Part shown: positions 18,748 to 38,503 of the stretch, one piece after another | Numbering within the stretch: position 1 is the first letter of the stretch | Layout: each line of letters opens with the position of its first letter | DNA from: a bacterium | Lineage (GTDB): Bacteria > Actinomycetota > Acidimicrobiia > Spongiisociales > Spongiisociaceae | Length of the DNA: 64,000 bases | NCBI GenBank assembly: GCA_028821235.1 | Contig: JAPPGV010000027.1 | Coordinates: forward strand, 6,383 to 70,382 | Direction: 5' to 3' | Position numbers and translations under genes: made by a program | The notes under the pieces: generated by a model | Databases searched by the model: none | Told to the model about the DNA's origin: nothing | Seen by the model: the letters and a program-made list of their open reading frames with translations, nothing else

Positions 18748-19680
18748 ATGACCTCGGCCACGACACGTAGAGAGTGGAGCGTACCCGTAGGACGCCGGAT
18801 CGACGGCGCACCATGGCAGGTCCGATTCGTCGAACTCCGCGGCGCCACGCCGGGACCGGCGACGGCCATAGTCTCAGGGCTGTACGGTGACAAGCCCCTC
18901 GGGTCGATCGCGGTGCATGATCTGGAGAGACACCTGATGCGGGAGCAACTGAAGGGCACGGTTCTCCTGGCGGCAGCCGTGAACCTCCCCGCCCTCCAGG
19001 TGGGCACCCGAGTCTCACCCGACCATCTGTACCTGAACCGGCGCTTTCCGGGGACGCCGACCGGCTTTCTCACCGACCAGGTCGCCCACGCCGTCGCGAC
19101 CGTCGTCTACGAGCACGCGGAGTGCGTCATCGACCTGCACTCGGGGACGCCCGACATGGCATTGTGGTATTCCTACGATGCCGGAGATCTCGAACTCACA
19201 TCCTCCTTCGGCTACCTGCCGGTCGTAGTGGACTTCCGGCCGGGAGGCCAGGTCAGCGCGACAGCCGTAGAGCGCGGCCTCTCAGGCTTCCTTCCCGAGT
19301 TCGGAGGGGCGAGCCTGCCCTCCCCGGCCGCCGGCGTCGAAGGCAGCCTGAACACGCTGCGTTACCGGGGCCACCTAGGCGGTACTCCCACCGGCCCGCC
19401 GCGACTGCCCGTCATCCGCGAACGGCCGCTGTTCCTCGCTTCCACGAGCGGCATACTCCAGAGCGGCGTGTCCACCGACTCGGTCGGCAGTGAGATCCCG
19501 GCGGGTCGCCTCGGATGGATCACCAGCCCCGCCACGGGGGAGGTCTGGGAGGAGTTCGAGATCGACCGTCCCGGCATCCTCCTGATGGCGGTGACCACGC
19601 CGACGATCGTCAACCCCGGCGACTTCGCCTTCATGGTCGGGTTCCCCCATGACGAGGTCGAAGTCCCCGGAGCGCCATGA
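18748..19680 (+). CDS. AstE/aspartoacylase-family (M14-like) protein lacking the first zinc motif
   Basis: 310 residues, resembling succinylglutamate desuccinylase/aspartoacylase deacylases. YLNRRFPG (about 95-102) and VIDLHSG (His131) are conserved. The usual GxHGDE zinc motif reads GLYGDK, so the expected His is Tyr46 and the expected Glu is Lys49. With two of three zinc ligands gone it may be inactive, use a different chemistry, or act as a binding protein. A GAGGA ribosome site precedes the ATG. The 135-bp gap before it shows nothing notable. Confidence 0.75.
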   Translation: MTSATTRREWSVPVGRRIDGAPWQVRFVELRGATPGPATAIVSGLYGDKPLGSIAVHDLERHLMREQLKGTVLLAAAVNLPALQVGTRVSPDHLYLNRRFPGTPTGFLTDQVAHAVATVVYEHAECVIDLHSGTPDMALWYSYDAGDLELTSSFGYLPVVVDFRPGGQVSATAVERGLSGFLPEFGGASLPSPAAGVEGSLNTLRYRGHLGGTPTGPPRLPVIRERPLFLASTSGILQSGVSTDSVGSEIPAGRLGWITSPATGEVWEEFEIDRPGILLMAVTTPTIVNPGDFAFMVGFPHDEVEVPGAP

Positions 19681-19786
19681 CGCCGAGGTGGAATGACCGG
19701 ATCAGAGCCGGCCGGATGCCTGGCCCCGAGGCGCGGCGCCGCAACCCGCACGACCAGGGAGCGGGGTCATAGCCGAGAGATACGAC

Positions 19787-22164: not shown

Positions 22165-22312
22165 GCGTTTTGGCGGACGATGCAGGCACACCCGAGGCGA
22201 TGATCCCACCGGCGTCCACCCCGCAGCGGTGCTCTGTCGAGCGTTTGTCCAGACGCATTCCCATCAGTGAGATCGGCTACCGTGCGTCACGCCTCACACC
22301 GGAAGTTCCCTC

Positions 22313-23362
22313 ATGAAATTCTCGATCTCCACGACCGTCGTCAGCGTCCGGGATGGAGAGCGCCGGTGGGACCTCGACGGCTACCTGGCGGAGTGCGAAT
22401 CGGCCGACGCGCTCGGTTTCGAGTTTGCGTACAAGGGCGAGCGGCGTGGGCACGGCCCTCACTCCGGGACGCACGGGGTCGTGAACAACGCGCAACTCAT
22501 CGCCCAGTTCGGACTGGCGGAAACGGAGCGGCTCAAGTTCGCAAGCGGTGTGGTGCTCCTCCCCCTCTATCACCCGGTGACCGTGATCCAGGATGCGGCG
22601 ATGATCAACGCCATGTATCCGGGCCGGTACCGGCTCACGGTCGGCGCCGGTTACCTGCAGGACGACTTCGACGTCTATGGATTGGACCTGTCGGAGCGAC
22701 CCCTGAGGATGCGCAGAGGCCTGGAGGCTATCAACGCATTCCGCTCCGGCAAGCCCTTCCGTTTCGCCGAAGACGACCCGTGGCGGGGTTCGGTTCCTCC
22801 TCGCGATCCGGCGATGGGTGATCTCGTTCCGGAGGTCTGGGTCGGGGCCTGGAGCGATGTCGGTGTCAAGATCGCTGCGCTTGGCGATGGCTGGGAGACC
22901 GGTCCGATCAGCTCCACCGCGCACCTCTCACACCTCGCCGGGCTGTACAGGGAGGAGTGCGCGAAGCTGGGAAAGACCCCCCGGATCGCCATCCTCCGTG
23001 AAGCGGCGATCGCCCCCACCGACGAGGCTGCGCGAGGGCTCCTAGGCAAGTACATCCTGGACTACCACCGGATCTACTACCGGCGCGGCAACGCTTACTA
23101 CAAGCCGAAATGGGAGCCCTGGATCGAGGAAGTCGGCTCGGCAGACGACATCACCCTCGACCATGTCCTCCGCAACAGGGCCCTGGTCGGCTCACCGGCC
23201 ACGTGGATAGAGATGCTGGAGGAGTGGAGGGAGATACTCGATCCGGAAGAGATCATCCTCCGCCTCCGTTACTTCCACGGTCCAGGACTCGACACCGCAC
23301 TCGAGGGTCAGCGGATGGTCGCTTCCGAGGTCATGCCCCACTTCGAGGACGGCCGGACCTGA
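22313..23362 (+). CDS. LLM-class F420/FMN-dependent oxidoreductase
   Basis: 349 residues with a luciferase-like TIM-barrel. N-terminal KFSISTTVVSV is followed by LAECESADALGFEFAYKGER, ERLKFASGVVLLPLYHPVTVIQDAAMI and YRLTVGAGYLQDDFDVYGLD, a standard pattern for F420- or FMNH2-dependent monooxygenases and reductases. C-terminal segment LVGSPATWIEMLEEWREILDPEEIILRLRYFHGPG also fits. A GGAAG site precedes the ATG. The 148-bp gap 22165-22312 holds no other feature I can see. Confidence 0.9.
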   Translation: MKFSISTTVVSVRDGERRWDLDGYLAECESADALGFEFAYKGERRGHGPHSGTHGVVNNAQLIAQFGLAETERLKFASGVVLLPLYHPVTVIQDAAMINAMYPGRYRLTVGAGYLQDDFDVYGLDLSERPLRMRRGLEAINAFRSGKPFRFAEDDPWRGSVPPRDPAMGDLVPEVWVGAWSDVGVKIAALGDGWETGPISSTAHLSHLAGLYREECAKLGKTPRIAILREAAIAPTDEAARGLLGKYILDYHRIYYRRGNAYYKPKWEPWIEEVGSADDITLDHVLRNRALVGSPATWIEMLEEWREILDPEEIILRLRYFHGPGLDTALEGQRMVASEVMPHFEDGRT

Positions 23363-23377
23363 TCCGTCCACATAGCG

Positions 23378-24151
23378 TCAGTCAACGGCGCCCGATGATC
23401 TCTTGGTTGGGGGCTCTCCTCCACCGGTGGTTACGGACAGGACCCGGACTGCCAGGTGGAAGGCGGCCTCGGTGACGCCCAGGCCGGTTCCGGCGAGTCG
23501 CTCCAGCGTGTCCACCTCGTCCCCGGCGGCTTCCGCCGCCACCTGATCCTCCCATTCGATCAGCGTCGCCCACGACGACAGCCACGGGTTGGCGTGGTGC
23601 TGGCGTCCGGTACGGTTCAGGAGTCGGGCAGCCAGGAACCCGGACCGACTCGCAGCCCGGGGAAACTCGACATGGCGAACCCAGTCCACCAAGGCATCCC
23701 GGTTCGAGCCCTGTTCCAGGTCGAAGCGGACCGAAGTCACAACCGGGGCATCCACCGCGCCGGACCGGCTACCTTCCGACCACGACCGGTCAGGTACCTC
23801 GACACCGAGCGTGTGGATCTGCCGGTAGACGGTATTCGATCGGTTCGTGACGCCGGCGAGGATCGCCGGGCGTTCCGGGTCCGAGGCCGGCGTTCGCTTC
23901 GTGTTGTAGGGCTCCGAGTAGAAGATCTCCGAGCTGTCGATCTCGTAGACATTGAGGATGAACGGCGAACCGGCCCGGCAATGGTATCCGTGGGCGCTGT
24001 GGAACCCGACCGAGATCAGGTCGGGTGCGTGCTTGTGTTCGTACCAGTCCATGAATGCCGGCAACCCCTCCGGTGCGACATCCATCCGTGCCATGTATAT
24101 GTTCGGAAGCGTGTCGATGATCCCTCCCTCGATGTGCCGCGGACCGGTCAA
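23378..24151 (-). CDS. Duplicated dimeric alpha/beta-barrel protein (EthD/ferredoxin-like fold)
   Basis: 257 residues from a TTG start overlapping the upstream gene's stop (TTGA), so translation is probably coupled. Two similar halves are visible. In the first, NIYMARMDVAPEGLPAFMDWYEHKHAPDL starts near residue 17; in the second, VVTSVRFDLEQGSNRDALVDWVRHVEFPRA starts near residue 137. Each looks like a beta-alpha-beta segment of the ferredoxin-like dimeric-barrel superfamily. No catalytic residue can be assigned. It is the last gene of a minus-strand unit with a crotonase and two acyl-CoA dehydrogenases. Confidence 0.65.
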   Translation of the reverse strand: MTGPRHIEGGIIDTLPNIYMARMDVAPEGLPAFMDWYEHKHAPDLISVGFHSAHGYHCRAGSPFILNVYEIDSSEIFYSEPYNTKRTPASDPERPAILAGVTNRSNTVYRQIHTLGVEVPDRSWSEGSRSGAVDAPVVTSVRFDLEQGSNRDALVDWVRHVEFPRAASRSGFLAARLLNRTGRQHHANPWLSSWATLIEWEDQVAAEAAGDEVDTLERLAGTGLGVTEAAFHLAVRVLSVTTGGGEPPTKRSSGAVD

Positions 24152-24957
24152 TCCGACTCGTCCGAACCGGAGAGACGCCGCCGCCGTTCCGCGAGCGCGG
24201 CCCGTGCGCCCGACGTGTGATGGCTCAGCGAGTGCGAGAGGAAGTGGAAGCCACTGACCGCCTGGTAGCCGGCCTGATCGTCCATCTGCCTGAGCGAGAG
24301 TTTCGACAGCATGAGCGTTTCGGCCGGAATGGCTGCCAGGGATTGGACGACCGACTCGATCCGTTCCTCGATCTCATCGGCTGCCACGACCTCGGAGACC
24401 AGGCCCGCCTCCAGGGCGGTCTGCGCGTCCATTCGCTGGTCGAGCCAGAGGGTTTGCTTGGCCCGCCGCGAACCCACGGCCCAGGCGAATGCCGGAACCT
24501 CGGCGTCGTTGATGCTCATGGCCGGGATGATGGGCGAACCGAAGACGGCGTCCGGCGTCGCGTATACGAAATCCGCGACCGAGATGAACATCAGGCCGGC
24601 CGCGAGGCAGTGGCCATGGGCGAGCACCACCGTAGGCACGGGGAGCTCGCGAAAGCGGTTCACCGGGTCCACGAACAGCCGCTGCTCCCATTGCATCCTG
24701 CCCTCCACCGACTCGACCGCTCGGGCGTAGTCGGCATGCCTCACGATCTCGTTGAGATCATGCCCTGAGCAGAACGACCTTCCCTTGCCTGCGAGCACGA
24801 CGACGCGTACACCGGTGTCCTGGCCGACCAGCTTGAGCGCTTCGTCCAGGGCCTGGAGCATTTCGGTGTTCTGGGCGTTGTGCACTCGGGGTCGGTTGAA
24901 CCAGATCCATCTCGCCGGTCCACGGTCTTCCACCAGCAACGGTGTGTTGTCGTTCAT
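24148..24957 (-). CDS. Enoyl-CoA hydratase/isomerase (crotonase) family protein
   Basis: 269 residues; the start is the ATG at 24957, which has a strong GGAGGAAG site 6 nt upstream. The crotonase fold is clear: VVVLAGKGRSFCSGHDLNEI gives the first oxyanion-hole segment, and VVLAHGHCLAAGLMFISVADFVYATPDAVFGSP the second. Where typical hydratases carry a catalytic Glu just after FGxP, this protein has Ile-Ile, so it may be an isomerase, decarboxylase or hydrolase type. It follows the smaller acyl-CoA dehydrogenase with a 4-nt overlap. Confidence 0.88.
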   Translation of the reverse strand: MNDNTPLLVEDRGPARWIWFNRPRVHNAQNTEMLQALDEALKLVGQDTGVRVVVLAGKGRSFCSGHDLNEIVRHADYARAVESVEGRMQWEQRLFVDPVNRFRELPVPTVVLAHGHCLAAGLMFISVADFVYATPDAVFGSPIIPAMSINDAEVPAFAWAVGSRRAKQTLWLDQRMDAQTALEAGLVSEVVAADEIEERIESVVQSLAAIPAETLMLSKLSLRQMDDQAGYQAVSGFHFLSHSLSHHTSGARAALAERRRRLSGSDESD

Positions 24958-25952
24958 TGGGTCTTCCTCCGTGCGATGATCGACCGGCCGACGAAACGGC
25001 GAAGGCTCTCCGTGCCCCCAAGTTGTTGCTGCAGCGCCAGGCATCGCCGGTAGTACAGGTGGATTCCATACTCCCATGCAAAGCCCATACCGCCGTGAAC
25101 CTGGATGGCGTCCTCCGCCACCTGCCGAGCCACGGATACAGCCGCCGCGCCGAGGCTCGCAGTGAGCTCAGGGCGCGGTTCCTCAAGCCATGCCAGCCGG
25201 CTGACCGCGGAGCGAATGAGTTCGCATCCCGCCCGCATGTCGGCGAGCTTGTGCTGGATCGCCTGGAATGCGGTCAGCGGCCGCCCGAACTGGGACCGTT
25301 GGCGGGCATAGTCCACCGACACTTCCGTGACTCGGTCCGCCACCCCGGAAAGCTCGGCGAGGACGAGGACCCGGGAGCGATCCACTGTGCGCGCATGATC
25401 GGCGCCGGTCAGGACAGTCGAGGCGTAGGGGTCGAAACTGAGCCGGCTGCGGCCCTGCCCGGGGTCCACTCCGGGCTCCGGTTCGACCACACTGTCCGGA
25501 TGGCCGAGGTCGACGACTCGTGACGATCTCTCTCCCACCACCAGCGCAGCGCTCGCTTTCTCCTCGATCCAGACCTCCGCTTGCTCCCCATCCGCGGGAG
25601 CGGAGCCGATTGCAGGGAATCCGCATCCCCAGGGAGCACCGGCCGGCGGTTGGCCGGATAGTCCGTCCATCACCAGTGGGCCCACGAGGGTCATCTTGAG
25701 GCGCGACAGTGTCGGCATCAAACGGCGGCCTCCCACCCAGCCCACCAGGCAGAGTTGGTCGAGGCCGAGTCCCAGGCCTCCCATCTCTTCGGGAACGGCC
25801 AGCTCGGTGAGGCCGACCTCGTCCAGCGTCGTGAGCAGGGTCGAGTCCGGAGTCTCTGAAGCAGCCGCGTCGAGCAGTCGATCGGTCGAAGCATGATCTG
25901 CGAGTAGATGATCCAGCGTGGACGCTACTTCCAGACCCATGGAACCACTCAT
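24954..25952 (-). CDS. Acyl-CoA dehydrogenase, short subunit
   Basis: 332 residues from an ATG overlapping the previous gene's stop (ATGA). ELAVPEEMGGLGLGLDQL marks the N-terminal domain; the C-terminal half has RSQFGRPLTAFQAIQHKLADM and IQVHGGMGFAWEYGIHLYYRRC. The middle beta-domain is reduced compared with a full-length acyl-CoA dehydrogenase. Adjacent, coupled pairs of one long and one short subunit form heteromeric enzymes in actinobacterial side-chain and steroid degradation. I infer the same here. Confidence 0.9.
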   Translation of the reverse strand: MSGSMGLEVASTLDHLLADHASTDRLLDAAASETPDSTLLTTLDEVGLTELAVPEEMGGLGLGLDQLCLVGWVGGRRLMPTLSRLKMTLVGPLVMDGLSGQPPAGAPWGCGFPAIGSAPADGEQAEVWIEEKASAALVVGERSSRVVDLGHPDSVVEPEPGVDPGQGRSRLSFDPYASTVLTGADHARTVDRSRVLVLAELSGVADRVTEVSVDYARQRSQFGRPLTAFQAIQHKLADMRAGCELIRSAVSRLAWLEEPRPELTASLGAAAVSVARQVAEDAIQVHGGMGFAWEYGIHLYYRRCLALQQQLGGTESLRRFVGRSIIARRKTQ

Positions 25953-27109
25953 CGGAGGCCCAGGAGTTGGCGGGCGATCACGTTGCGTTGGATCTCCGAC
26001 GTACCGGAGTAGATGCTGACCGACCGGGACTCCAGGAGGTCGTGAATCCACCCGTCGTCGAGTCCCTCGTCGGACAGATGGTCGAAAGCTGTGGCGAAGA
26101 GGTCCTGGTATACGTCAGCCAGGAAGAGCTTGTCCACCGAACTCGAACCCGGAACCAGCGTTCCGTTCTCCTGGTGACCCAAGGTCCTCAAGACCTGCGC
26201 GTCGAGCAGGTCGAGCTTCGACTCCAGGACCCCCAGCGACGCGACGGCGCCTTCGATCTTGCCGAGCGCATCGAGCCGGTCGACGAGATCGGCGAGCCGG
26301 CGTCGAAGGCCGGTGGTCCGTTCCAGCACGAACAGGCCGCGCTCGTAGGCCATCGCTTCCATGGACACGTCCCAGCCATTACCGAGCCCGCCCAGGACGT
26401 TCTCGAGAGGCACCTCGACCCCGTCGAAGAAGACCTCGCTGAAGTGGGGCTCGCCGAGCATCTGCAACAAGGGCCGGACTGTTACGCCGGGCGATCCCAT
26501 GTCGACGATCAGAACGGAGAGACCGGAGTGTCGCACCCCTTCGGGGTCGGTCCGCACGAGCAGCGCATTCCACTTGGACAGCTCCGCGCGGCTCGTCCAG
26601 ACCTTCTGGCCGTCGACCACGAGCACGTCTCCGGAGACCTGCGCCCTCGTGCGGACCGCCGCTAGGTCCGAACCGGCGTCCGGTTCGGAGAAACCCTGGC
26701 ACCAGATCTCGCTGGCGTCGAGCATGCCGGGGAGAAAACGAGCCTTTTGCGCCGGCGTGCCGCGGCTGAGAATCGTGGGCCCCCAGGTATAGAGAGCGAG
26801 ACGGTTGATGAGTTGCGGCATGCTGGTTGCGGCGAGTTCCTGGCACAGCACGGCCTCCGCGGCCAGACCCATCCCTCCACCGCCGAATTCGGTTGGCCAT
26901 GAGAGCCCGACGAAACCCGCCCGATGGATTTGACGCTGCCATCGAGTTAGTGCCGCCATACGGGCTTCGTATTCGAATGGCTGGGGGCCGGGGTCGTTCT
27001 TCTCGAACCATCGGCGAAGGTCCAGCCTGAGGTCATGTAACTCGCTCTCGACTCTCAAAGTCGGCGGCACGACGTGGCCGGGGACAATGCTGCTGAAGGG
27101 GGCTTGCAT
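25949..27109 (-). CDS. Acyl-CoA dehydrogenase, long subunit
   Basis: 386 residues if started at the ATG at 27109. A TATTAT element lies about 8-13 nt upstream of that ATG and no ribosome site is visible, so the transcript may be leaderless. Family features include the ICQG/WCQGFSEPDAGSDLAAVRTRA stretch, DGQKVWTSRAELSKW, AYERGLFVLERTTG and the C-terminal SVSIYSGTSEIQRNVIARQLLGL. With its coupled short partner it should oxidise an acyl-CoA at C2-C3 using FAD. The operator-like palindrome at 27118-27136 lies immediately upstream. Confidence 0.92.
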   Translation of the reverse strand: MQAPFSSIVPGHVVPPTLRVESELHDLRLDLRRWFEKNDPGPQPFEYEARMAALTRWQRQIHRAGFVGLSWPTEFGGGGMGLAAEAVLCQELAATSMPQLINRLALYTWGPTILSRGTPAQKARFLPGMLDASEIWCQGFSEPDAGSDLAAVRTRAQVSGDVLVVDGQKVWTSRAELSKWNALLVRTDPEGVRHSGLSVLIVDMGSPGVTVRPLLQMLGEPHFSEVFFDGVEVPLENVLGGLGNGWDVSMEAMAYERGLFVLERTTGLRRRLADLVDRLDALGKIEGAVASLGVLESKLDLLDAQVLRTLGHQENGTLVPGSSSVDKLFLADVYQDLFATAFDHLSDEGLDDGWIHDLLESRSVSIYSGTSEIQRNVIARQLLGLR

Positions 27110-27117
27110 TGTCCCAG

Positions 27118-27136
27118 ATAATATCCCATATGTTAT
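27118..27136. promoter_or_regulatory. Operator-like palindrome between divergent genes
   Basis: ATAATAT-CCCAT-ATGTTAT: 7-bp half-sites matching at 6 of 7 positions, with a 5-bp spacer. It sits 9 bp upstream of the long acyl-CoA dehydrogenase start and 50 bp upstream of the SDR start. The half-site differs from the GATATCG family seen after 38 kb. It overlaps the TATTAT -10-like element, consistent with repression. Confidence 0.5.
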
Positions 27137-27186
27137 AACCAGCCCCACTACCAACAACGCGAAGCACGAGGAAAGGTCAACTTGTC

Positions 27187-27888
27187 ATGAGGAGTAATGT
27201 TCGACGTGCCCTCGTCACCGGAGCCGCGCGAGGCGTCGGACACGCAACCTCCCTGTTACTGGCCGACCGGGGTTACGAGGTGGTAGGCGTCGACATCCGC
27301 GCGCAGCGTTCGAACGGAGCCACGGCCACGATCAGCGCCGACCTGAGCGATCCGTCGGAGTGCGACCGGGTAATCGCCGAGGCGGGGCGGATCGACGTCC
27401 TCGTGAACGCTCACGGCTTGCTTGAGCCACGAGCAATCGAGTCCACAACCGTCGAGGACTTCGATCGAGCGGTGAGCGTGAACCTTCGTTCGGTGTTCCT
27501 CCTGTGTCAAGGGAGCGCACCATCCATGGCCGCCGAGGGATGGGGGCGCATCATCAACTTCTCCAGCGTCGTCGCCCGGACCGGGGGGTTCTCGTCCGCG
27601 CCCTACGCCGCGGCGAAGGCCGGCGTCATCGCGCTCACGAAGTCGTTCGCGACGGCGTACTCGGGCAGGGGCGTCACCTGCAATGCCGTCGCGCCCGCAG
27701 CCGTCGACACCGAACTCAATGCGTTTCTCGACGAAGCAGGGCGCCAGAGGATCATCGATCAGGTGCCGGTCGGCCGGTTCTCGACACCCGAGGAATTCGC
27801 CGCGCTCGTCCTGTATCTCGCCGGAGACGACGCCGGATACATCACCGGCGCAACAATCGACATGAACGGCGGATGGGTGATGACGTGA
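27187..27888 (+). CDS. Short-chain dehydrogenase/reductase
   Basis: 233 residues. NAD(P)-binding ALVTGAARGVGHATSL, then VNAHG (the NAG equivalent), the catalytic Ser in INFSSV and YAAAK (Tyr and Lys). The GGW C-terminus is usual for FabG-like enzymes. It is divergent from the acyl-CoA dehydrogenase unit and shares its 77-bp control region. GAGGAAAGG lies 9 nt upstream of the ATG. A role in oxidising a 3-hydroxyacyl-CoA or free alcohol is plausible but not shown. Confidence 0.92.
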   Translation: MRSNVRRALVTGAARGVGHATSLLLADRGYEVVGVDIRAQRSNGATATISADLSDPSECDRVIAEAGRIDVLVNAHGLLEPRAIESTTVEDFDRAVSVNLRSVFLLCQGSAPSMAAEGWGRIINFSSVVARTGGFSSAPYAAAKAGVIALTKSFATAYSGRGVTCNAVAPAAVDTELNAFLDEAGRQRIIDQVPVGRFSTPEEFAALVLYLAGDDAGYITGATIDMNGGWVMT

Positions 27889-27960: not shown

Positions 27961-29082
27961 ATGGGTGAGATGGAGAAACGCCCGACCGCAGCCGAACGTG
28001 GGGAGGACCTCGCTCGCCATCTCCATGCCAACCCCGAGACGGGGCTGGCCGAGATCGATGCCTCGGAGCGCTGCGTACGCCTCCTGAGCGAGGGTGGATT
28101 CGACATCCGGCACGGTATAGCCTCGCTCGACACGGCCTTCGTCGCCGAGAAGAAACTCGGCGGGGACGGCCCGACGGTCGGGCTGGTGGTCGAGTACGAC
28201 GCTCTGCCCGAAGTCGGGCACGGTTGCGGGCACAATCTGATCTGTGGCGGGGTCATGGAAGCCGCTCTGGAACTGGCCGACCGTCCCGATCTGCCGGGCA
28301 CTCTCAGGGTGATCGGCACTCCGGCGGAGGAATTGTTCGCCGGCAAGGCGCCCATGCTCGAGGCAGGCGCCTTCGACGGGGTAGACGCGGCATTCACCTA
28401 CCACCCGTCGGACGTGGTCGCTGTCTTCGGCACGCTGAACGGCGCCGCCCTGTTCGACTTGGCCTTTCAGGGACAGGCGTCACACGCGGCCAGCCGCCCG
28501 TGGGACGGCCGGAGTGCTCTCGATGCGGCGACTCTCGCGGCGTACGCTCTCGCGATGGAACGCCAGTATCAACGTGACGGCTGCCGGATCCACGCAAAGG
28601 TGGAGTCCGTGTCCGGTAGCCACAATGTCCTGCCGGACAGGGCGAGCCTCAGGGTGAACGTTCGAGCTCCGAAGGACGATCTGCTCGAAGGCCTCATCGA
28701 GAGCGTGCAACGTATTGCCGAGGGATCGGCCCACACCACCGCGACGGGGGTCACCGTGAGCCTTCTGAGTAAAGCCCGTCCCTATCTGATGCACGAGGGG
28801 CTTGCCCGACTCGCCTGGGATGTTCTGGGAGTCCCCGCCGGCACCACGTACGACATCTCGGGCTCCAGCGATCTCGGTGACGTCAGCCAGGCCATTCCGA
28901 CGGTGTGCGTCACCGAGGTCGGTTGGTCACCCGTGACATGGCACTCGCGCGAGCTGCATGACGCCGCCGGCTCAGAAGGGGCATTCTCCTCGATGCACCG
29001 GGCCGCCGGGGCATTGACGAGGATGGTCGAGCGGTTCGCGGCATCTCCGCACCAATGGTTGGCAGACCCCACGCCGGGTTGA
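27961..29082 (+). CDS. M20-family amidohydrolase/peptidase
   Basis: 373 residues. The metal site is recognisable: YDALPEVGHGCGHNLICGG (about 78-96) matches the M20 HxCGHN motif, GTPAEE carries the general-base Glu, and HAASRPWDGRSALDA is the dimerisation-domain His motif. It resembles the AbgB-type p-aminobenzoyl-glutamate hydrolase branch. It cleaves an amide, N-acyl or small dipeptide bond. ATG 27961 or 27970 could be the start. It follows the SDR by 72 bp on the same strand. Confidence 0.88.
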   Translation: MGEMEKRPTAAERGEDLARHLHANPETGLAEIDASERCVRLLSEGGFDIRHGIASLDTAFVAEKKLGGDGPTVGLVVEYDALPEVGHGCGHNLICGGVMEAALELADRPDLPGTLRVIGTPAEELFAGKAPMLEAGAFDGVDAAFTYHPSDVVAVFGTLNGAALFDLAFQGQASHAASRPWDGRSALDAATLAAYALAMERQYQRDGCRIHAKVESVSGSHNVLPDRASLRVNVRAPKDDLLEGLIESVQRIAEGSAHTTATGVTVSLLSKARPYLMHEGLARLAWDVLGVPAGTTYDISGSSDLGDVSQAIPTVCVTEVGWSPVTWHSRELHDAAGSEGAFSSMHRAAGALTRMVERFAASPHQWLADPTPG

Positions 29083-29109
29083 TGCGGGGAGGATCGGTGG
29101 GCGACGACT

Positions 29110-30756
29110 GTGGGTAGCCAACGCGAGAACGAGCGGGACCGGGCGTGGGTGTCGGCGTCCGGGGTCGAGTTGGAACCGGTCTACGGCCCGCATCATGTCG
29201 CTGACGGGCAGCGCCGCGCCGCCGGGTCCCTACCCGGCGCAGCTCCCTTCCTGCGAGGCGCATACCCCGAGATGTACCGCTCCAGGGACTGGCGGATCTT
29301 CCAGCTCAGTGGATTCGGCAACCCCTCCGACATGAACAAGCGGATCCGGTTCCTGCTGGACGCCGGGGAGACGGGCGTGATCGTCAAGCACGATCGGATG
29401 ACGGACGACCACCTCTATGACGTAGACCACCCGGACATCGTCGAGCGTCGAGAGGACGTCGGCTTGACCGGCACGGTCACCGTCGGGCTCAGGGACTACG
29501 AGACCATCATGGACGGGATTCCGCTCGCGTCCGTCTACGTCAAGCCGGGCGGAGGGGTCCCGCAGAGCGCCCCGTACACCCTGGCGTGCTACTGGTCCAC
29601 GGCCAGCCGTCGTGGGATCCCGCTCGAGAATTTGAGTGGCACCGGCCAGAGCGACTTCTTCCTCACGTACATCGGATGCCCAACCAAAGAGCAGATACCT
29701 CCGGATGCCGCGATGCGGCTCAACCTGGACATCATCGATTGGTGTATGGAGCGGATGCCTCATTGGGTGCCGGTCTCGATTGCCGGATACAACGGAGCGG
29801 ACTCGGGGCTCAACGCTTGGCAGGAGCTCGGGGCCGTCTTCGCCAATGCGGTCGAATACCTGGAGGCGGTGTCCGATCAGGTGGACGGCAAGTTTGACAA
29901 CTTCGCCCGGATGATCGGCGGCGTGAACTTCCGCACCTCCATGGATCTCTTCGAGGACGCGGCGAAGCTGCGAACGGCGAGGAAGATGTGGCATGACCTG
30001 CTGACTAACCGGTACGGCGTGACGGACGAACGGTCTCTTCGCCTCCGCATCCACGTCGTCACGGCCGGCAGCAACATGGCGTACCAGGAGCCACTCAACA
30101 ACATCGTCAGAGGGACGGTGATGGCACTGGCGGCCGCGCTGGGCGGTACCCAGTCGCTGGGAGTCTCGGGCTATGACGAGGCCATGTCCATCCCGTCCGA
30201 CCATGCGCACCTGATGTCGATCCGTATCCAGCAGATCCTCCAGGAGGAGACGAACATCACCGCGGTAGCCGATCCGCTCGGGGGGTCCTTCTACGTCGAA
30301 CACCTCAGCCAGGAGCTCGAGAGGCGGGCTCTCGCGTTCATGGACGAGATCGAGAAGCAGGGGGGTTTTCTCTCGGTGATCGACAGTGGCTGGCTCCTCG
30401 ACCAAGCCGCTACCGGCCAGATGGAGGAAATGGCGGCAATCGAGAGCGGCGGGAAGCGGATCGTCGGCAGCAACGTACACCTCGGACACGAAGAACTCAT
30501 GCCGATAGAGGGTTTCGAGGGCCGCTCCGGTGAGGAGACCTGGGAGAGGGCCATGCAACGCCTTGCCTCGTTGCGGCGGGAGCGGCACGGACGGGAGGCG
30601 GTCCGGAGGCTCAGGGAACTCGAAGCGGCATGCCGGACAACCGAGAATGTCATCCCCCGGGTCATGCAGGCGGTGCAGGCCGACGCGACCATCGGCGAGA
30701 TAGGGGACGTGTTCCGGAGCGCGTTCGGCGTCTGGGAAGTTCCGATGCGGTTCTGA
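29110..30756 (+). CDS. Atypical B12-dependent acyl-CoA mutase large subunit
   Basis: 548 residues from a GTG start. The overall fold matches the methylmalonyl-CoA mutase substrate domain (PFLRGAYPEMY, then QSLGVSGYDEAMSIPSDHA and VADPLGGSFYVE). Active-site positions differ: FQLSGFGNP puts Leu66 at the Tyr89 position, VIVKHDRM puts Lys93 where others have Ala or Asp, and GYNGADSG puts Asn228 where all mutases I know have the catalytic His. Arg in AAMRLN appears retained. It is followed 5 bp later by its B12-binding small subunit. I expect a different substrate or altered chemistry. Confidence 0.88.
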   Translation: MGSQRENERDRAWVSASGVELEPVYGPHHVADGQRRAAGSLPGAAPFLRGAYPEMYRSRDWRIFQLSGFGNPSDMNKRIRFLLDAGETGVIVKHDRMTDDHLYDVDHPDIVERREDVGLTGTVTVGLRDYETIMDGIPLASVYVKPGGGVPQSAPYTLACYWSTASRRGIPLENLSGTGQSDFFLTYIGCPTKEQIPPDAAMRLNLDIIDWCMERMPHWVPVSIAGYNGADSGLNAWQELGAVFANAVEYLEAVSDQVDGKFDNFARMIGGVNFRTSMDLFEDAAKLRTARKMWHDLLTNRYGVTDERSLRLRIHVVTAGSNMAYQEPLNNIVRGTVMALAAALGGTQSLGVSGYDEAMSIPSDHAHLMSIRIQQILQEETNITAVADPLGGSFYVEHLSQELERRALAFMDEIEKQGGFLSVIDSGWLLDQAATGQMEEMAAIESGGKRIVGSNVHLGHEELMPIEGFEGRSGEETWERAMQRLASLRRERHGREAVRRLRELEAACRTTENVIPRVMQAVQADATIGEIGDVFRSAFGVWEVPMRF

Positions 30757-30761
30757 GCGGT

Positions 30762-31148
30762 ATGGCGCACACCAGGATTCTGATCGCAAAGACGAGCCTC
30801 GACGGGCATTGGCGAGGCGTTATGGTCGTCGCCCGAGCATTGAGGGATGCCGGCTTCGATGTGCTGCTCGGTGGAATGCTCCGAGCCGGTGACATCGCTC
30901 AGATGGCCGGCGACGAGGACGTGCAGATCATCGGCCTGAACGTGGGGGGAAGGATCGAAGTGGTCCACCGGATTCTGGACACGCTGGAAGAGGCGGGACT
31001 CGCGGACATCCCGGTCTTGGCAGGAGGAACGATTCCACCACAGGCGATCGACGATCTGGCCTCCCGCGGGGTCTCCGTCCATCCCCCCGGAAGCCCGTTG
31101 ACCGAGATCGTCGATGCGGCCAACCGGCTTGTCGGCAGGGTCGGGTGA
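30762..31148 (+). CDS. B12-binding small subunit of acyl-CoA mutase
   Basis: 128 residues. The cobalamin motif DxHxxG is present as DGHWRG near residue 15, followed by LGGMLRAGDI, IIGLNVGG and PVLAGGTIPP, which form the nucleotide-loop binding pocket. This is the size of the small subunits of split mutases such as isobutyryl- or 2-hydroxyisobutyryl-CoA mutase. It lies directly after the atypical large subunit and overlaps the next ligase by 4 nt. It may also serve the large subunit at 14674, which has no partner nearby. Confidence 0.92.
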   Translation: MAHTRILIAKTSLDGHWRGVMVVARALRDAGFDVLLGGMLRAGDIAQMAGDEDVQIIGLNVGGRIEVVHRILDTLEEAGLADIPVLAGGTIPPQAIDDLASRGVSVHPPGSPLTEIVDAANRLVGRVG

Positions 31149-32731
31149 CCGCGCGGATGCCGGACGGGCCGCATCCCGATTACCTCACCAGCCGCCTGAG
31201 ACGCGCCACGCTCGGTGACGTCCTGGAACGTAGGGCTCTTCGCGACAGAGACAGTCCAGCCGTCGTCGTCCATACAGGTGATCAGCAACGCCTCGACCTC
31301 ACCTATGGCCGGCTGGACGGTCTCGCCAACCGGATGGGTCGCGCTCTCCAGAGGCAGGGTGTCGGGGCTCGAGACGTCGTGGCGGTGATGGCCGGCAACG
31401 GACTCGACCACATCGTGACCTACTACGCCGCTCTCAAGATCGGCGCTGTCTTCACAACCCTCAACCCGAATCTGACCGAGTTCGAGACGGCACGGCAGCT
31501 CGAGAGCGCTCGACCGCGCTTGATCGTCGCGGAGAACCGACTGGCTCAGGTGGTTGCCCGTTCTGTCGAGTCGGTCATCCCCACGAGGACGGCGAGTGAC
31601 AGCATGACTTCCGGGAGCGAACTGGCGGCCATGCTGGAGGAAGAGGAGCCGCTTGCGGGCGATTGGCGCGTCGGCGAGCACGATCTCGCAATGATCATCT
31701 ATACATCAGGAACGGAGACCGAACCGAAGGGCGTTCGCATACCCCATCGGAACTTCCTGATCGCGACATCTCCCGCGTGGACCGGAGAGCGGTATGTCGA
31801 GCCTGACGATCGGTTCCTGCTTCTGGCCCCCATGCACACGATGGCCGGTGTCGGCACCGTCACCAATCTGATCTCGGTGGGCGCCACCGTCGTGCTCGCC
31901 GCGAGTACGCAGGCGGCGCACTGCCTGGAGCTGATCAGGTCGGAGCGGATCACCAACATGTCGCAAACGCCGACCTTCTACGTCCGGCTGACCCAGAACG
32001 GAGATTTCGACCGAGCCGACATCTCTTCCCTCCGGCAAGCTCATACCTATGGCGGTGTTATCCCCGTACACGTCACCGATGCGATGTCATCCCGTGTCCC
32101 GAGGCTGAACTGGGCGACGTACTGGGGGCAAACAGAGTTGAGCCAGCTGGGCGCGATCGGTTACTACGGCAGCCAGACTGAGATTCCCGGGCGCGACCCG
32201 CGCTGGATCGGGCGCGCAGTGCCACAGGTAGAGGTCCGGGTGGTCGACGAGTCCGATCAGCCGACCGAGGTCGGCGAGTTGATCTGCCGTTCTCCCGCCG
32301 TCATGGAGGGCTACCACCGCCGGCCTGACCTGACTGCTGCGGCCACGAGAGGCGGTTGGCTGCGAACCGGCGACATCGTCCGGATCGATCAGGACATGAA
32401 CCTCTTCTTCTATGACCGCAAGAAGGACGTCATCAAGTCCGGCGGATTGAACGTCTCCTCTCTGGAGGTCGAGGGTGTTCTCTCGAGGGTTCCGGGCGTC
32501 CGGGAAGTGGCAGTGGTGGGCACTCCCGACCCGGTGTGGTCGGAAGCCGTCACCGCGTTCATCGTGCGAGAGGACGGCAAACCAACGGATGGGACGGAGT
32601 TGATGGCCGCTGCCAGACGGGAGCTCGCGGCATTCAAGGTGCCGAAGCGTATTCACTACCTACCTGCGCTTCCGCGGGATTCGCAGGGCAAGGTGCTGAA
32701 GAGGCAGCTGCGAGAGCTTGTAGTGGAGTAG
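31145..32731 (+). CDS. AMP-forming acyl-CoA ligase
   Basis: 528 residues from a GTG overlapping the small-subunit stop. ANL motifs: P-loop IIYTSGTETEPKG, where the usual TSGTTG is altered to TSGTET, YWGQTELSQ, LRTGDIVRIDQDMNLFFYDRKKDVIKSGGLN and the terminal catalytic Lys in SQGKVLKRQ. It probably activates the acid used by the mutase encoded just upstream. It is convergent with malate synthase G. Confidence 0.92.
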   Translation: MTARMPDGPHPDYLTSRLRRATLGDVLERRALRDRDSPAVVVHTGDQQRLDLTYGRLDGLANRMGRALQRQGVGARDVVAVMAGNGLDHIVTYYAALKIGAVFTTLNPNLTEFETARQLESARPRLIVAENRLAQVVARSVESVIPTRTASDSMTSGSELAAMLEEEEPLAGDWRVGEHDLAMIIYTSGTETEPKGVRIPHRNFLIATSPAWTGERYVEPDDRFLLLAPMHTMAGVGTVTNLISVGATVVLAASTQAAHCLELIRSERITNMSQTPTFYVRLTQNGDFDRADISSLRQAHTYGGVIPVHVTDAMSSRVPRLNWATYWGQTELSQLGAIGYYGSQTEIPGRDPRWIGRAVPQVEVRVVDESDQPTEVGELICRSPAVMEGYHRRPDLTAAATRGGWLRTGDIVRIDQDMNLFFYDRKKDVIKSGGLNVSSLEVEGVLSRVPGVREVAVVGTPDPVWSEAVTAFIVREDGKPTDGTELMAAARRELAAFKVPKRIHYLPALPRDSQGKVLKRQLRELVVE

Positions 32732-32769: not shown

Positions 32770-34926
32770 TCAGCCGGTGGTCCGCCGGCCCTTCAGCTCG
32801 GAGCGCCGGGCGTGGAGGATGGGTTCGGTGTAGCCCGAGGGCTGTTCCATCCCGAGGAACACCAGGTCGCATGCGGCCGTGAAGGCCGGGCCGTCGAAGG
32901 CCGGCGCCATGGGCCGGTAGCCGGGGTCGCCGGCGTTCTGGCGATCCACCACCACCGCCATCGTCTTCATCGTCTCCATGACTTGGCGGCGGTCCACCAC
33001 CCCGTGGTGAAGCCAGTTGGCGATGTGCTGGGACGAGATGCGGCAGGTGGCCCGGTCCTCCATGAGCCCGATGTCGTTGATGTCGGGAACCTTGGAGCAG
33101 CCGATACCCTGATCGACCCATCGCACCACGTAGCCCAGGATCCCCTGCGCGTTGTTGCGGAGCTCGGCGGTGATCTCCTCGGATGTCCAGTCGGTACTCG
33201 GGGCCAGCGGTATCTCGAGCAGCTCTGCCAGGTCTCGCGGCGGGCGGTCGGCGATCTCGTCCTGGCGGCCGGTCACGTCAACCCGGTGGTAGTGCGTGGC
33301 GTGGAGGGTGGCGGCGGTCGGGGAGGGAACCCACGCGCAGTCGGCGCCGGCCAGCGGATGGCCGACCTTCTCCTCGAGCATTGCCGCCATGAGGTCAGGC
33401 GCAGCCCACATCCCCTTGCCGATCTGTGCCCTGCCCCGCAGACCGCAGGCGATACCCACATCCACGTTCCAGTCCTCGTAGGCCTGGATCCAGCGCTGGG
33501 CCTTCATGAGGGTCTTGGGCACCATCGGCCCGGCTTCCATGGAAGTGTGGATCTCGTCGCCCGTGCGATCGAGGAAGCCGGTGTTGATGAAGACGATCCT
33601 CGAACGGGCGGCCCGGATGCACTCGGCCAGGTTGAGGGTCGTTCGGCGCTCCTCGTCCATCAGGCCGATCTTGACCGTGTCGCGAGGCAGGCCCAGCACG
33701 TCCTCCACATGGTCGAACACGTCGGACGTGAAGCGCGCCTCCGCGGGTCCGTGCATTTTGGGTTTGACGACGTAGCAGGAACCCGTCCGGGAGTTGCGCC
33801 TGCCGGTCTGCGCTCGGAGGTCGTGGCACGCCACCAGCGTGGTGACCATGGCGTCCACCAGACCCTCGTGGGCCTCGTTCCCGTCTCGATCGTGGACGGC
33901 CGGTGTCGTCATCAGGTGGCCCACGTTGCGGGCCAGGAACAGGGAGCGGCCGGGAAGCGTGAAGCCTGACCCGTCGGGCGCGGTATAGGTCCGATCCTGT
34001 GCCAGCCGGCGGGTGAAGGTCCGGCCGTTCTTGGTGACCTCGGCGGTCAGGTCGCCCCTGGTAAGGCCCAGCAGGTTCCGGTAGGCGAGCGCCTTGTCCG
34101 CCCCGTCGACGGCGGCGATGGAGTCCTCGAGGTCGAGGATGGTGGTGACCGCCGCCTCCAGAACGATGTCGGACACCCCCGCCGGATCGTCGGCGCCGAC
34201 GGGACCCTCAGGGTCGATCTCGATGGCGATGTGAAGGCCGTGGTTCCGGAGCAGCACCGCGGTGGGGGCGTCGGTGGATCCCTGGTAACCGGCCAACTGG
34301 TCGGGTCGGGCCAGGCCGGCGGTGACGCCCGATGACAGCCGCACCTGCAACCGGCCGTCCGCCACCGAATACCGGGCGGCGTCGGCATGCGAGCCGTCGG
34401 ACAGCGGGACCACATCGTCCAGGAAGCTCCGGGACCAGGCCACCACCCGGCGACCGCGGGCCGGGTCGTAGCCGCCCGCGGGCGGCGGGTCGCCCAGCGC
34501 ATCGGTGCCGTAGAGAGCGTCGTAGAGGGATCCCCATCGGGCGTTCAAGGCGTTGAGGGCGAACCGGGCGTTCGTGATCGGGACCACCAGTTGGGGGCCG
34601 GCCACCTCGGCCATCTCGGTGTCCACGTCGGATGTGGTGATGGAGAACTCCGGGCCCCTCGGCTCGATATAGCCGATCTCCTCCAGGAAGGCCCGGTAGG
34701 CCTCCCGATCGAAGGCCCCGTCCCGGTTGGCCCGATGCCAACCGTCGATAGCGGCCTGGATTTCGGCGCGCCGGAGGAGGAGGTCCCGGTTGCGGGGACC
34801 GAAGTCGTGGACAAGGTCGGAGAATCCCTTCCAGAAGGCGCCGGGGTCCACGCCGCTGCCCGGGAGCGCCTCCTCGGTGATGAACTGGTACAGCTCGTCA
34901 GCGACTACCAGACCCTCGATGTCCAT
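32770..34926 (-). CDS. glcB: Malate synthase G
   Basis: 718 residues, the length of the G isoform. Characteristic stretches are [73 protein letters not shown] and [21 protein letters not shown]. It condenses glyoxylate with acetyl-CoA to malate in the cytoplasm. GAGGAG precedes the ATG. It is the last gene of a minus-strand unit that begins at the operator 38504-38522 and follows an FMN 2-hydroxyacid dehydrogenase by 27 bp. That suggests the dehydrogenase makes glyoxylate from glycolate. Confidence 0.97.
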
Positions 34927-34953
34927 GGTGTTTCTCCTCGGCGACTCCCGACC

Positions 34954-36168
34954 CTAGGGTCGGCGCCGCACGAGGTCCCGGCCCACCTCGCCAACCGACC
35001 GCACTCCGGCCAGCGCCATGGTAGAGCGCATGGTCTCGGCCAAAAAGTCGAGAACCCAGTCGACCCCCTTCTCCCCGCCGGCGCCCAGCCCGTAGAGGTA
35101 GGCGCGACCCACCATCACCGCCCGGGCGCCCAGGGCGAGTGCCTTCAGGATGTCGGACCCCCGCCTTACTCCGCCGTCGCAGATGATCTCCGCCTCGTCG
35201 CCCACCTCCTGGGCGATCGGCTCGATCAGGCCGATGGGTGTTGGGGAGCCCTCGAGCTGGCGACCACCGTGGTTGGAGACGGCGATGGCATCCACGCCGT
35301 GCTTGACCGCCCGGCGGGCGTCCGCCACGGACTGGATCCCCTTGATGATGATCGGGCCGTCCCAGACCGACCGGAACCACTCGATGTCCGACCACGACAG
35401 GCTGGCGTCGAACTGGTCATGGACCAGGCTGGCCAGGGCGACGGCGGAACTGCCGTCATGGTCTGTGAGGCCCACAACGTTGGAGAAGGTGATCGGTTCG
35501 GCGGTGATGAAACGCCAGGTCCAGGACGGCCTCCGCAACCCGTCGAGGAGCATGTCCAGCCCCAGCTTGGGGGGCAGGGTCATCCCGTTGCGCACGTCCC
35601 GCTCCCGGCGGCCCGGCACCGCCAGGTCGACCGTGATGCACAGTGCTTCGTAGCCGCAGGCGGCCGCCCGCTCGATCATGTTGCGAACCAGCCCGCGGTC
35701 CTTCCAGACGTACACCTGGAACCAGTTGCGACCTCCGGCCCCCGCATCGGCCACCTCCTCGATGGAGCGGGTCCCCAGCGTGGACAGGGAATAGGGGATG
35801 CCACGGCGCGCCGCGGCCCGAGCCACCGGCAGCTCGCCCCCCGGATCGACGATCCGGGTGAAGCCGGTGGGGGCGAGGACCACCGGCATCGGGAGGGGCC
35901 GGCCCAGGAGGGTGGTGGAGGTATCGATGTGCGACACGTCCCGGAGCACGGAGGGAACGAACTCCCACTTGTGGTAGTCCGAGCTGTTACGACGGTAGGT
36001 GATCTCGTCCTCGGCAGCGCCGTCCACGTAGTCGAACACCCCTTGGGGCAGGCGGCGGCGAGCGATGCGGCGAAGGTCGTCTATGTTCGCCGACGACTGC
36101 ATGCGCCGCAGGTCGGGGTCTGGTTCGAAGGCCCGGAAGCGCGCTACGGACCTGATCGTTCTGAACAT
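34954..36168 (-). CDS. FMN-dependent 2-hydroxyacid dehydrogenase/oxidase
   Basis: 404 residues. This is the LldD/glycolate oxidase TIM-barrel: FDYVDGAAEDEITYRRN near residue 43, then LAPTGFTRIVDPGGE, GRNWFQVYVWKD, the catalytic SNHGGRQLEG and ICDGGVRRGSDILKALALGA. It oxidises an L-2-hydroxyacid (lactate, glycolate or mandelate type) to the 2-oxoacid. The start is the ATG at 36168; the frame extends upstream but that part is out of character for the family. It sits next to malate synthase G, which favours glycolate or a similar substrate, an inference. Confidence 0.93.
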   Translation of the reverse strand: MFRTIRSVARFRAFEPDPDLRRMQSSANIDDLRRIARRRLPQGVFDYVDGAAEDEITYRRNSSDYHKWEFVPSVLRDVSHIDTSTTLLGRPLPMPVVLAPTGFTRIVDPGGELPVARAAARRGIPYSLSTLGTRSIEEVADAGAGGRNWFQVYVWKDRGLVRNMIERAAACGYEALCITVDLAVPGRRERDVRNGMTLPPKLGLDMLLDGLRRPSWTWRFITAEPITFSNVVGLTDHDGSSAVALASLVHDQFDASLSWSDIEWFRSVWDGPIIIKGIQSVADARRAVKHGVDAIAVSNHGGRQLEGSPTPIGLIEPIAQEVGDEAEIICDGGVRRGSDILKALALGARAVMVGRAYLYGLGAGGEKGVDWVLDFLAETMRSTMALAGVRSVGEVGRDLVRRRP

Positions 36169-36206
36169 GCCCACGGGATGGAAGGCTAGCGGTCCTTGTG
36201 ATCGCG

Positions 36207-37583
36207 TCAGCCCGGTGAGGCCATCCTCCCTCCGCCCGGAGCGGCCACCACCTCTCCGTGCTCGTAGACCATCCGTCCGCGTAGGAGCGTGGCGTCGATC
36301 GCTCCTACGACCCGGCGCCCGGCGTAGGGGGTCCAGCCGCACTTGCTCAAGACGTGGTCGTCGCTGATCACCCAGGACCGTTCCGGATCGACCAGGACCA
36401 GGTCGGCGTCCCGTCCGACCTCGATGCGGCCCTTCCGGGAAAGGCCGAAGATCTCCGCCGGCCTGGTGCTGGTGAGACGCACCACGTCCTCGAGGGTGAT
36501 GCGACCGGAGCGAGTTGCGTCCAGGAGCAGTGGTCCGTAGAACTCGAGGGAGGGTGTACCGGTGTGCGCCGCCCAGCCATCCTCCCAGCCAGGCTCCTTC
36601 TCCGCGGCAAGGTGTGGGGCGTGATCGGTCGCAACCAGATCGATCGTCCCGTCGCGCATGCCGTCCCACAGGGAGCCTTCATGCTCCGGCGGTACCCAGA
36701 AGGACAGAGCGTAGGAGCCCAGGCGCTCCACGGTGTCCCAGTCGTTGCCGAGGAACACCGCCCACGGGTTTATCTCCGAGGTCACGTCGCGACCCTGTGC
36801 CTTGGCGGCCCGTATCTGGTCGACCATCCCGGCCGTCTGCATGTGCAGCACATGGAGGCGTGCCCCGGTCGCCTGCTGGATGCGGAGCACCACCGCCAGC
36901 GCGGCCTCCCATACGATCCCGTCGTGCTCGGCGTAGGCGCGGGCGTAGGCGCGGTAGTCACGCTCGCCCCGGCTCCAGTAGTCCTGCTCGATGGCATCCA
37001 TGATCGACTGGTCGTGCACATGGACCATCAGGGGAAGGCCGGTCCGCTCCACGAGGGCGAAAATCTCCAGCAAGCGACCGTGGTCATGCACACCAAGGCC
37101 GGGCATGTGGGGGTAGTCACGCCCCGTGTCGGCCACCATGTAGATCTTGAACCCGGCTATGCCCATCCTGGCCAGGGTCGCGATCTGGTCGGGATCGGTG
37201 GCAGCCGCGTTGATGTTCCAGTCCACCGTCGCTGCTTCCCGATAGTGCTCGATCATCGATGCCAGCGTGGCCGCGTCCTTTGGGGGCGGGGACACGTTGG
37301 GCATGGCGAAGGTGGTGGTGACCCCTCCCGCGGCGGCAGCCCGCGTGGCGGTGGTGGCGTCCTCCTTGTGGGTGAACCCGGGGTCGCGGTGGTGGCAGTG
37401 GGTGTCGACCAGCCCGGGCAGGATCATGAGTCCGTCTGCGTCGATAACCCGCCTCGCCGGGATTCCGGAGCCGGGATCCACTATCCCGGAGATGCGCTCG
37501 CCATCCACGAGGACATCCGCCACCTGCCTGCCCCAGGCGTTGACGACCGTTCCTCCCCTGATTGCCAGGTCGTGTCGGGCCAT
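36207..37583 (-). CDS. Dihydroorotase/hydantoinase-like cyclic amidohydrolase
   Basis: 458 residues; the start ATG overlaps the preceding SDR stop (ATGA). The amidohydrolase metal site is visible: DTHCHHRDPGFTHKED (about 57-72), a likely carboxylated Lys in GFKIYMV, His in MVHVHD and LHVLHM, and the final Asp in VATDHAPH. The HxHxRxPG form resembles dihydroorotase and allantoinase. Outside a pyrimidine context it more likely opens a hydantoin or another cyclic imide of the imported compound. No other pyrimidine biosynthesis gene is near. Confidence 0.9.
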   Translation of the reverse strand: MARHDLAIRGGTVVNAWGRQVADVLVDGERISGIVDPGSGIPARRVIDADGLMILPGLVDTHCHHRDPGFTHKEDATTATRAAAAGGVTTTFAMPNVSPPPKDAATLASMIEHYREAATVDWNINAAATDPDQIATLARMGIAGFKIYMVADTGRDYPHMPGLGVHDHGRLLEIFALVERTGLPLMVHVHDQSIMDAIEQDYWSRGERDYRAYARAYAEHDGIVWEAALAVVLRIQQATGARLHVLHMQTAGMVDQIRAAKAQGRDVTSEINPWAVFLGNDWDTVERLGSYALSFWVPPEHEGSLWDGMRDGTIDLVATDHAPHLAAEKEPGWEDGWAAHTGTPSLEFYGPLLLDATRSGRITLEDVVRLTSTRPAEIFGLSRKGRIEVGRDADLVLVDPERSWVISDDHVLSKCGWTPYAGRRVVGAIDATLLRGRMVYEHGEVVAAPGGGRMASPG

Positions 37584-38362
37584 CAGATGATCGACTCCCC
37601 TCCGTCCACCGCGAGAACATGACCCGTGATGTACGAAGAGCGAGGCGAGAGAAGGAACCCCACCGAGTCGGCGATCTCTTCGGGGCGGGCCAGGCGGCGC
37701 AGGGGAACGCCCGCCCTGAACCGTTGCAGGTTTCCGTGGATGCGATCCTCCACGCCCGATTCGATGGGTGAACTCCAGAGGTCGACCATGCCCGTGGCGG
37801 TGGAGCCGGGATTGACGCAGTTGGCCCTGATCCCGCTCTCGGCAAGCTCCAGGGCCAGCACCTTGGTGAAGGCGGCCACGCCGGCCTTGGCGGTGCAGTA
37901 GGCGGCCTGGCCGATCCGGGGGAGCGTGGCCGAAGTCGAACCGATCGTGACTATCGAGCCCTCCCCTCGCTCGAGCATCAGCGCCGCTGCCTTCCGGCTG
38001 GATAGGAAGGTACCGAAGAGATCCACGTCTAGGACCCGCTTCCACCGCTCGTAGGGGAACGACGCCACCGGGGCCGACGTCTGGCGGATACCCGCGCACG
38101 TGACCAGCCCGTAGAGCGGTCCCAACTGGTCCACGACGGTCCGGAACCCGTCCTCCAGTGACTCCGGATCCGTCACATCCGCGCGGATCCCCGCGGTCGT
38201 GACTCCGGTGGATCCGAGACTCTCGGCGGCGTCATGCGCGCGGTCACCGTCGATGTCCAGGATGGCGACCTTCCCGCCTTCCGAGATGATGTGGCGGGCC
38301 ACGGCCATCCCGATACCGCCGGCTCCGCCCGTGACGGCGGTGACCGTGCCGTCCAGCGTCAC
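37583..38362 (-). CDS. Short-chain dehydrogenase/reductase
   Basis: 259 residues from the GTG at 38362, which gives the usual opening (V/M)TLDGTVTAVTGGAGGIG. An ATG at 38488 would add 42 Arg/Pro-rich residues unlike the family and would sit at the edge of the promoter region, so I did not use it. VTCAG, IGSTSAT and YCTAKAG supply the active-site Ser, Tyr and Lys. It is the first gene of the unit SDR, amidohydrolase, FMN dehydrogenase, malate synthase G, downstream of the operator at 38504-38522. Confidence 0.88.
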   Translation of the reverse strand: MTLDGTVTAVTGGAGGIGMAVARHIISEGGKVAILDIDGDRAHDAAESLGSTGVTTAGIRADVTDPESLEDGFRTVVDQLGPLYGLVTCAGIRQTSAPVASFPYERWKRVLDVDLFGTFLSSRKAAALMLERGEGSIVTIGSTSATLPRIGQAAYCTAKAGVAAFTKVLALELAESGIRANCVNPGSTATGMVDLWSSPIESGVEDRIHGNLQRFRAGVPLRRLARPEEIADSVGFLLSPRSSYITGHVLAVDGGESII

Positions 38363-38503
38363 GGCGGTCCCGGCCCGGGTCTGGAACCGCCTGCGGCGGG
38401 CGTATGGCGGAGGCTCATCGTTCCTGTGGATGACCTTGGATCGTGGGCGTTGACGGGCCGCCTCCGGCAAGGTCGACGGCCCCGGCAACTATAGTCCTCT
38501 GTC

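Follow-up and report, generated by a model that had tools for sequence, protein, structure and literature searches.

In methylmalonyl-CoA mutase (MCM), His244 touches the thioester carbonyl and aids the rearrangement. What, then, would a B12 mutase do with asparagine at this position? The question is raised by a gene from a member of the Acidimicrobiia, located within a stretch of 64,000 nucleotides that we refer to as the window. The initial annotation read this gene as a mutase large subunit with an unusual substrate pocket and proposed that it may catalyze a new acyl-CoA rearrangement. We describe its family membership, active-site residues, and genomic context. Judged by sequence, the gene is no broken copy; it belongs to a real, conserved branch of an established enzyme family. 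This branch apparently lacks an earlier description, and a new acyl-CoA rearrangement is plausible. The literature searched contains no characterized Asn-type mutase, although key enzymology papers lie outside its coverage, such that absence is not proven.

A conserved branch of the B12 mutase family

The gene reads through 548 codons without an internal stop. Its product scores well above the cut-offs of the broad family profiles PF01642 (MM_CoA_mutase; 459.6 bits, cut-off 22.1) and TIGR00641 (397 bits over residues 13-547, cut-off 303.8). It remains below the cut-off of the methylmalonyl-CoA mutase equivalog NF006944 (348.5 bits versus 876) and far under that of the IcmF model (134 bits versus 1500). 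The genome encodes 4 MM_CoA_mutase paralogues, and this one has the lowest PF01642 score. The closest PDB structures are 2-hydroxyisobutyryl-CoA mutase (HCM; 4r3u), with about 32% of aligned residues identical, followed by MCM. HCM and MCM also rank first in a Foldseek search with an AlphaFold2 model of low confidence (12 sequences, mean pLDDT 68); the matches include 1e1c, the H244A mutant of MCM. Residues 43-68 and 318-394 of this model, around the active site, fall mostly below 50, and structure-based pocket analysis was dropped for this reason.

Among 85,000 bacterial and archaeal genomes scanned, 13 loci matched at 57-99% identity, almost all of them from Acidimicrobiia by title or closeness; going by record titles, several look sponge-associated. 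The distribution is patchy: members occur in 15 of 296 genomes and 7 of 148 genera within the class, and in 3 of 396 genomes of a phylum-wide sample, one of them in another class (1 of 66 genomes there). Plasmid records contain no clade member (best match, 35.5% identity), and plasmid-borne spread was rejected. The clade genomes are metagenome assemblies, and the same gene arrangement recurs in several independent ones.

The clade alignment comprises 19 distinct orthologues (53-99% identity), mostly from Acidimicrobiia. They form a monophyletic group (support 100/100) whose stem measures 1.76 changes per column. Close orthologues give dN/dS values of 0.06-0.13 (large subunit) and 0.05-0.10 (its B12-binding partner); purifying selection on the large subunit is strong. 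With dN/dS of about 0.1 and an uninterrupted frame, a pseudogene was dismissed, and since every orthologue has asparagine, so was an isolated mutation or sequencing error.

Table 1. Genes and codons in the window that bear on the mutase and its surroundings
Positions	Strand	Feature	Evidence or remark
18748..19680	+	AstE/AspA-type deacylase	also near distant clade members
22313..23362	+	luciferase-like monooxygenase	also near distant clade members
23378..24151	-	257-aa protein, no Pfam/NCBIfam match	also near distant clade members
24148..25077	-	enoyl-CoA hydratase family protein	family scan; deleted in G213
24954..26051	-	acyl-CoA dehydrogenase, IpdE2-like partner	family scan; deleted in G213
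25949..27157	-	acyl-CoA dehydrogenase, large-subunit-like, divergent gene	co-deleted with the mutase in relative G213
27187..27888	+	short-chain dehydrogenase/reductase (SDR), first gene of probable operon	class read from sequence
27961..29082	+	M20-family amidohydrolase, 27 bp upstream of mutase	TIGR01891, 188 bits, cut-off 153.75
29110..30756	+	large (catalytic TIM-barrel) subunit, adenosylcobalamin-type acyl-CoA mutase, Asn clade	548 aa; family profiles, orthologues, alignment
29305..29307	+	codon of Leu66 (Tyr89 of MCM, Ile in HCM)	L in 19/19 clade rows; Y41/F11/I2 in others
29386..29388	+	codon of Lys93 (position 116 of MCM, Ala; Asp in HCM)	K12/E7 in clade; A52/D2 elsewhere
29791..29793	+	codon of Asn228 (His244 of Propionibacterium MCM)	N in 19/19 clade rows, H in 54/54 His-type rows
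30762..31148	+	small B12-binding subunit	DxHxxG (DGHWRG) and GG intact, SxL loop changed to NV-GG
31145..32731	+	acyl-CoA ligase (AMP-forming)	overlaps B12-subunit gene by 4 bp

A remodeled pocket and an altered B12 subunit

Window residues were mapped by structure-based alignment to Propionibacterium MCM, with the Y89F entry 5req as reference, and compared with 54 His-type rows, that is, aligned mutases outside the Asn clade and outside 2 other non-His lineages. Translation and alignment bear out the 3 residues singled out by the initial annotation, Asn228, Leu66, and Lys93; the first lies in a GYNGADSG motif, and GYHxxEAG with His244 is absent from the product. The annotation had expected the claim to fall if orthologues carried histidine; the family alignment has asparagine in all 19, and Leu66 is equally invariant. 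Of the 3 residues whose conservation it proposed to check, these 2 are fixed and Lys93 is not universal, being glutamate in 7 orthologues. The contrast with the His-type rows at these 3 positions is far beyond chance.

The annotation overlooked further changes (R87F, T85R, K202L, E203T, R207C, E247D, F287N, and the SxL loop of the small subunit). In Propionibacterium numbering, T85R, R87F, K202L, E203T, R207C, E247D, and N236V are fixed in 19/19 orthologues, S114I, Q330V, and S285G are nearly fixed, and position F287 is Asn in 15/19 and Ser in 4/19. The cofactor-side residues Y243, H328, Q361, and E370 are kept, as are T195 and Q197. The asparagine thus sits in a wholesale remodeling of the pocket and is not to be interpreted alone. 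The remodeling includes new fixed arginines (R62, R96, and R275) and extends to residues that contact CoA in MCM: R87, S164, T166, and S285 are replaced across the clade, and R283 is not conserved. CoA binding is therefore not a given.

The small subunit has changed as well. Of the DxHxxG, SxL, and GG motifs that mark the B12 domain of mutases with base-off/His-on cofactor binding, it keeps DxHxxG and GG. Its gene starts 5 bp past the mutase stop, and one with DxHxxG lies directly downstream of the mutase in every clade locus except 2 at contig ends (L010, L022). In all 12 clade B12 subunits aligned, the SxL stretch is replaced by Asn-Val-Gly-Gly with a two-residue deletion (His for Asn in L048). 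This altered loop may change the hold on the cofactor tail, and its occurrence alongside the large-subunit changes indicates that both subunits diverged together.

Two more non-His lineages occur in Actinomycetota, one with Asn (L082/L083; also L105/L106) and one with Gln (L090/L093; also L107/L108) at His244. Like the window clade, L082/L083 and L090/L093 have an amide at this position, have lost Lys202-Glu203, and use a separate B12 subunit; L082/L083 also share the insertion of one residue next to position 207. Unlike the window clade, both keep Arg87, the Asn lineage further keeps Phe89, Ala116, and Gln330, and their B12 subunits have an SG-containing loop (Ser-x-x-Ser-Gly). Lys202-Glu203 is present in 54/54 His-type rows and lost in all 3 non-His lineages, a perfect co-loss with His244 which suggests that the 3 residues function together. 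With every row in the tree, the non-His mutases join with support of 97-99; once L082/L083 are left out, the window clade separates from the Gln lineage. A single origin is thus only a possibility, and the grouping of both lineages with the window clade may reflect long-branch attraction. A further lineage (L092, L100, L101) has Ala for the conserved Tyr243 (GAH for GYH). The window's other mutase (P0002, 14674-16290) does have histidine at residue number 228 (GYHIRDSG), as the initial annotation stated; in it, Arg87 is replaced by Gly and His328 by Phe. This mutase has MeaB upstream (about 13675-14649, minus strand), a CoA ligase downstream, and no adjoining B12-subunit gene.

Genomic context and joint loss

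The initial annotation also described the mutase as paired directly with a small B12 subunit and a CoA ligase; this arrangement is real and recurs across clade loci. A likely operon comprises the SDR (27187), the M20 amidohydrolase (27961), mutase, B12 subunit, and ligase; the acyl-CoA dehydrogenases and hydratase are transcribed in the opposite direction. After the B12 subunit, the ligase is the steadiest neighbor, with a homologue in 10 of 14 clade neighborhoods sampled. MeaB adjoins in 2 clade members; genes for MeaB and a CobA-type adenosyltransferase are present in the genome. Clade members at 57% identity still share the deacylase, the luciferase-like monooxygenase, and the 257-aa protein with the window region. 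Luciferase-like monooxygenases are common in Acidimicrobiia, and we thus give their recurrence little weight.

Other neighbors vary between subclades, such that substrates may differ within the clade. In one subclade (L009 9583-17384; L011, L013, L016, L017), the genes immediately after the mutase pair encode a sulfoacetaldehyde acetyltransferase (792 bits, cut-off 676), an aminotransferase of class III, another type of ligase, a luciferase-like monooxygenase, an OB-fold protein, and a thiolase-like protein; this gene set suggests a link to sulfonate metabolism. Further downstream, a frame resembles acetate kinase by inspection. Another subclade has a nitroreductase. Given these disagreeing contexts, assignment of a substrate from neighbors was abandoned. 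Within the window, a row of minus-strand genes at 32770-38488 (malate synthase G-like, FMN-dependent hydroxyacid dehydrogenase-like, dihydroorotase/allantoinase-like, and SDR) is possibly a glyoxylate-yielding route.

A close relative (G213, locus L118; same genus, about 97% nucleotide identity) carries 3 deletions, corresponding to window positions 18620-23303, 24146-27025, and 29083-32420. It has lost the deacylase, an FAD enzyme, a cyclase, the monooxygenase, the hydratase, both acyl-CoA dehydrogenases, the mutase, its B12 subunit, and most of the ligase, of which a 103-codon remnant marks the loss. The genes between the deletions are spared, including the SDR and the M20 enzyme, and the other mutase is retained. 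Joint loss fits a single pathway and does not prove one.

Proposed reaction and its significance

From the sequence features, conservation, purifying selection, gene pairing, and co-loss, all directly established, we infer activity, a CoA thioester substrate, a role for Asn228, and a pathway. We consider it rather probable that the protein is an active two-subunit adenosylcobalamin-dependent acyl-CoA mutase that acts on a polar substrate, with Asn228 as hydrogen-bond donor. The 2 subunits would generate a 5'-deoxyadenosyl radical, which would take a hydrogen from the CoA thioester made by the adjacent ligase; the thioester carbonyl would move to the neighboring carbon, and the hydrogen would then be returned. 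Asparagine can form a hydrogen bond to the same oxygen as histidine and cannot donate a proton. Asn228 would thus supply the thioester-oxygen hydrogen bond given by His244 in MCM, and the most likely mechanism appears to be the standard radical migration of the carbonyl, with an amide as donor. In this manner, a branched acid, perhaps set free when the M20 or AstE-type hydrolases cleave an amide, would be prepared for the nearby acyl-CoA dehydrogenases and hydratase. The changed pocket (no Arg207 clamp, Leu for Tyr89, Lys/Glu at 116) argues for a substrate other than methylmalonyl-, isobutyryl-, pivalyl-, or 2-hydroxyisobutyryl-CoA; loss of the carboxylate clamp and Lys/Glu at 116 suggest that the acyl group is polar or charged and is held in a novel manner. 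A bolder form of this proposal makes the clade a class of B12 mutase with a mechanism of its own. In this form, which has an amide in place of the general-acid and hydrogen-bonding histidine, a rearrangement of a polar branched acyl-CoA outside the known mutase reactions, and a matching change at the cofactor tail, the proposal seems to us evenly balanced between right and wrong.

An ordinary activity, such as that of 2-hydroxyisobutyryl-CoA, isobutyryl-CoA, or pivalyl-CoA mutase, with a neutral His-to-Asn change, is unlikely. It draws on the shared fold, with HCM and MCM as top PDB matches, and on the gene layout. HcmAB (including Lcm/RcmAB-type relatives) is the closest solved structure; both systems have separate large and B12 subunits, a CoA ligase in the operon, and MeaB nearby (in some clade members). 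The HCM operon is ordered hcl-hcmAB-meaH (PMC7176365), and the window's two-subunit and ligase arrangement matches the HCM locus on a Xanthobacter plasmid (L103). Against this, the clade falls outside the His-type mutases, HCM included, on its long stem, and resembles HCM at only about a third of aligned residues. It has neither the HCM specificity pair (Ile and Asp at 89/116; Ile90 and Asp117 of HCM are Leu and Lys/Glu, and the HCM histidine is Asn) nor the MCM pair (Tyr89 and Arg207), and both equivalog cut-offs are missed widely. Compared with HcmAB, Arg87 and K202/E203 are also lost, and the B12 subunit is without the SxL motif. MCM (Propionibacterium 1req/4req, human MUT) shares the TIM-barrel family (TIGR00641), DxHxxG, Tyr243, Gln197, His328, and Glu370; it differs in that the holders of the substrate carboxylate, Tyr89 and Arg207, are Leu and Cys in the clade, His244 is Asn, and the B12 domain of the window system is a separate chain. 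IcmF, a fused isobutyryl-CoA mutase with pivalyl-CoA/isovaleryl-CoA side activity, has the same mutase fold and reaction type, and its fused G-protein domain is missing from the window protein.

We regard as improbable a homologue that has lost catalysis and serves structure or regulation instead, akin to the beta chain of heterodimeric methylmalonyl-CoA mutase. The missing catalytic histidine, R207, K202/E203, and several CoA contacts agree with such a role, as does the altered SxL loop. Yet no second MM_CoA_mutase chain adjoins, and the protein has its own B12 subunit with intact DxHxxG; the cofactor-side residues are kept, purifying selection is strong, and its fate is shared with the ligase.

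The lost CoA contacts leave room for an adenosylcobalamin mutase that no longer works on CoA thioesters and instead uses a free acid or another carrier. Replacement of R87, S164, T166, and S285, the variable R283, and the new fixed arginines are in line with this reading, to which we assign a similarly low probability; the constant presence of the ligase and the retention of T195, Q197, and Y243 favor CoA thioesters.

An active acyl-CoA mutase with an amide donor is the reading we carry forward; the Asn clade probably acts on a substrate new to this known enzyme family. Known acyl-CoA rearrangements by B12 mutases are very few, and several have opened the degradation of acids beyond beta-oxidation. 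A long-conserved natural lineage without the catalytic histidine would provide a direct test of whether the 1,2-shift relies on proton transfer or a hydrogen bond alone. Rational changes of first-shell residues in Lcm, a B12 mutase in use for synthetic carbon-fixation pathways, gave inactive protein (PMC11599936), which makes a wholesale remodeling of the pocket by nature more notable. The clade would extend the B12-mutase toolbox for such pathways.
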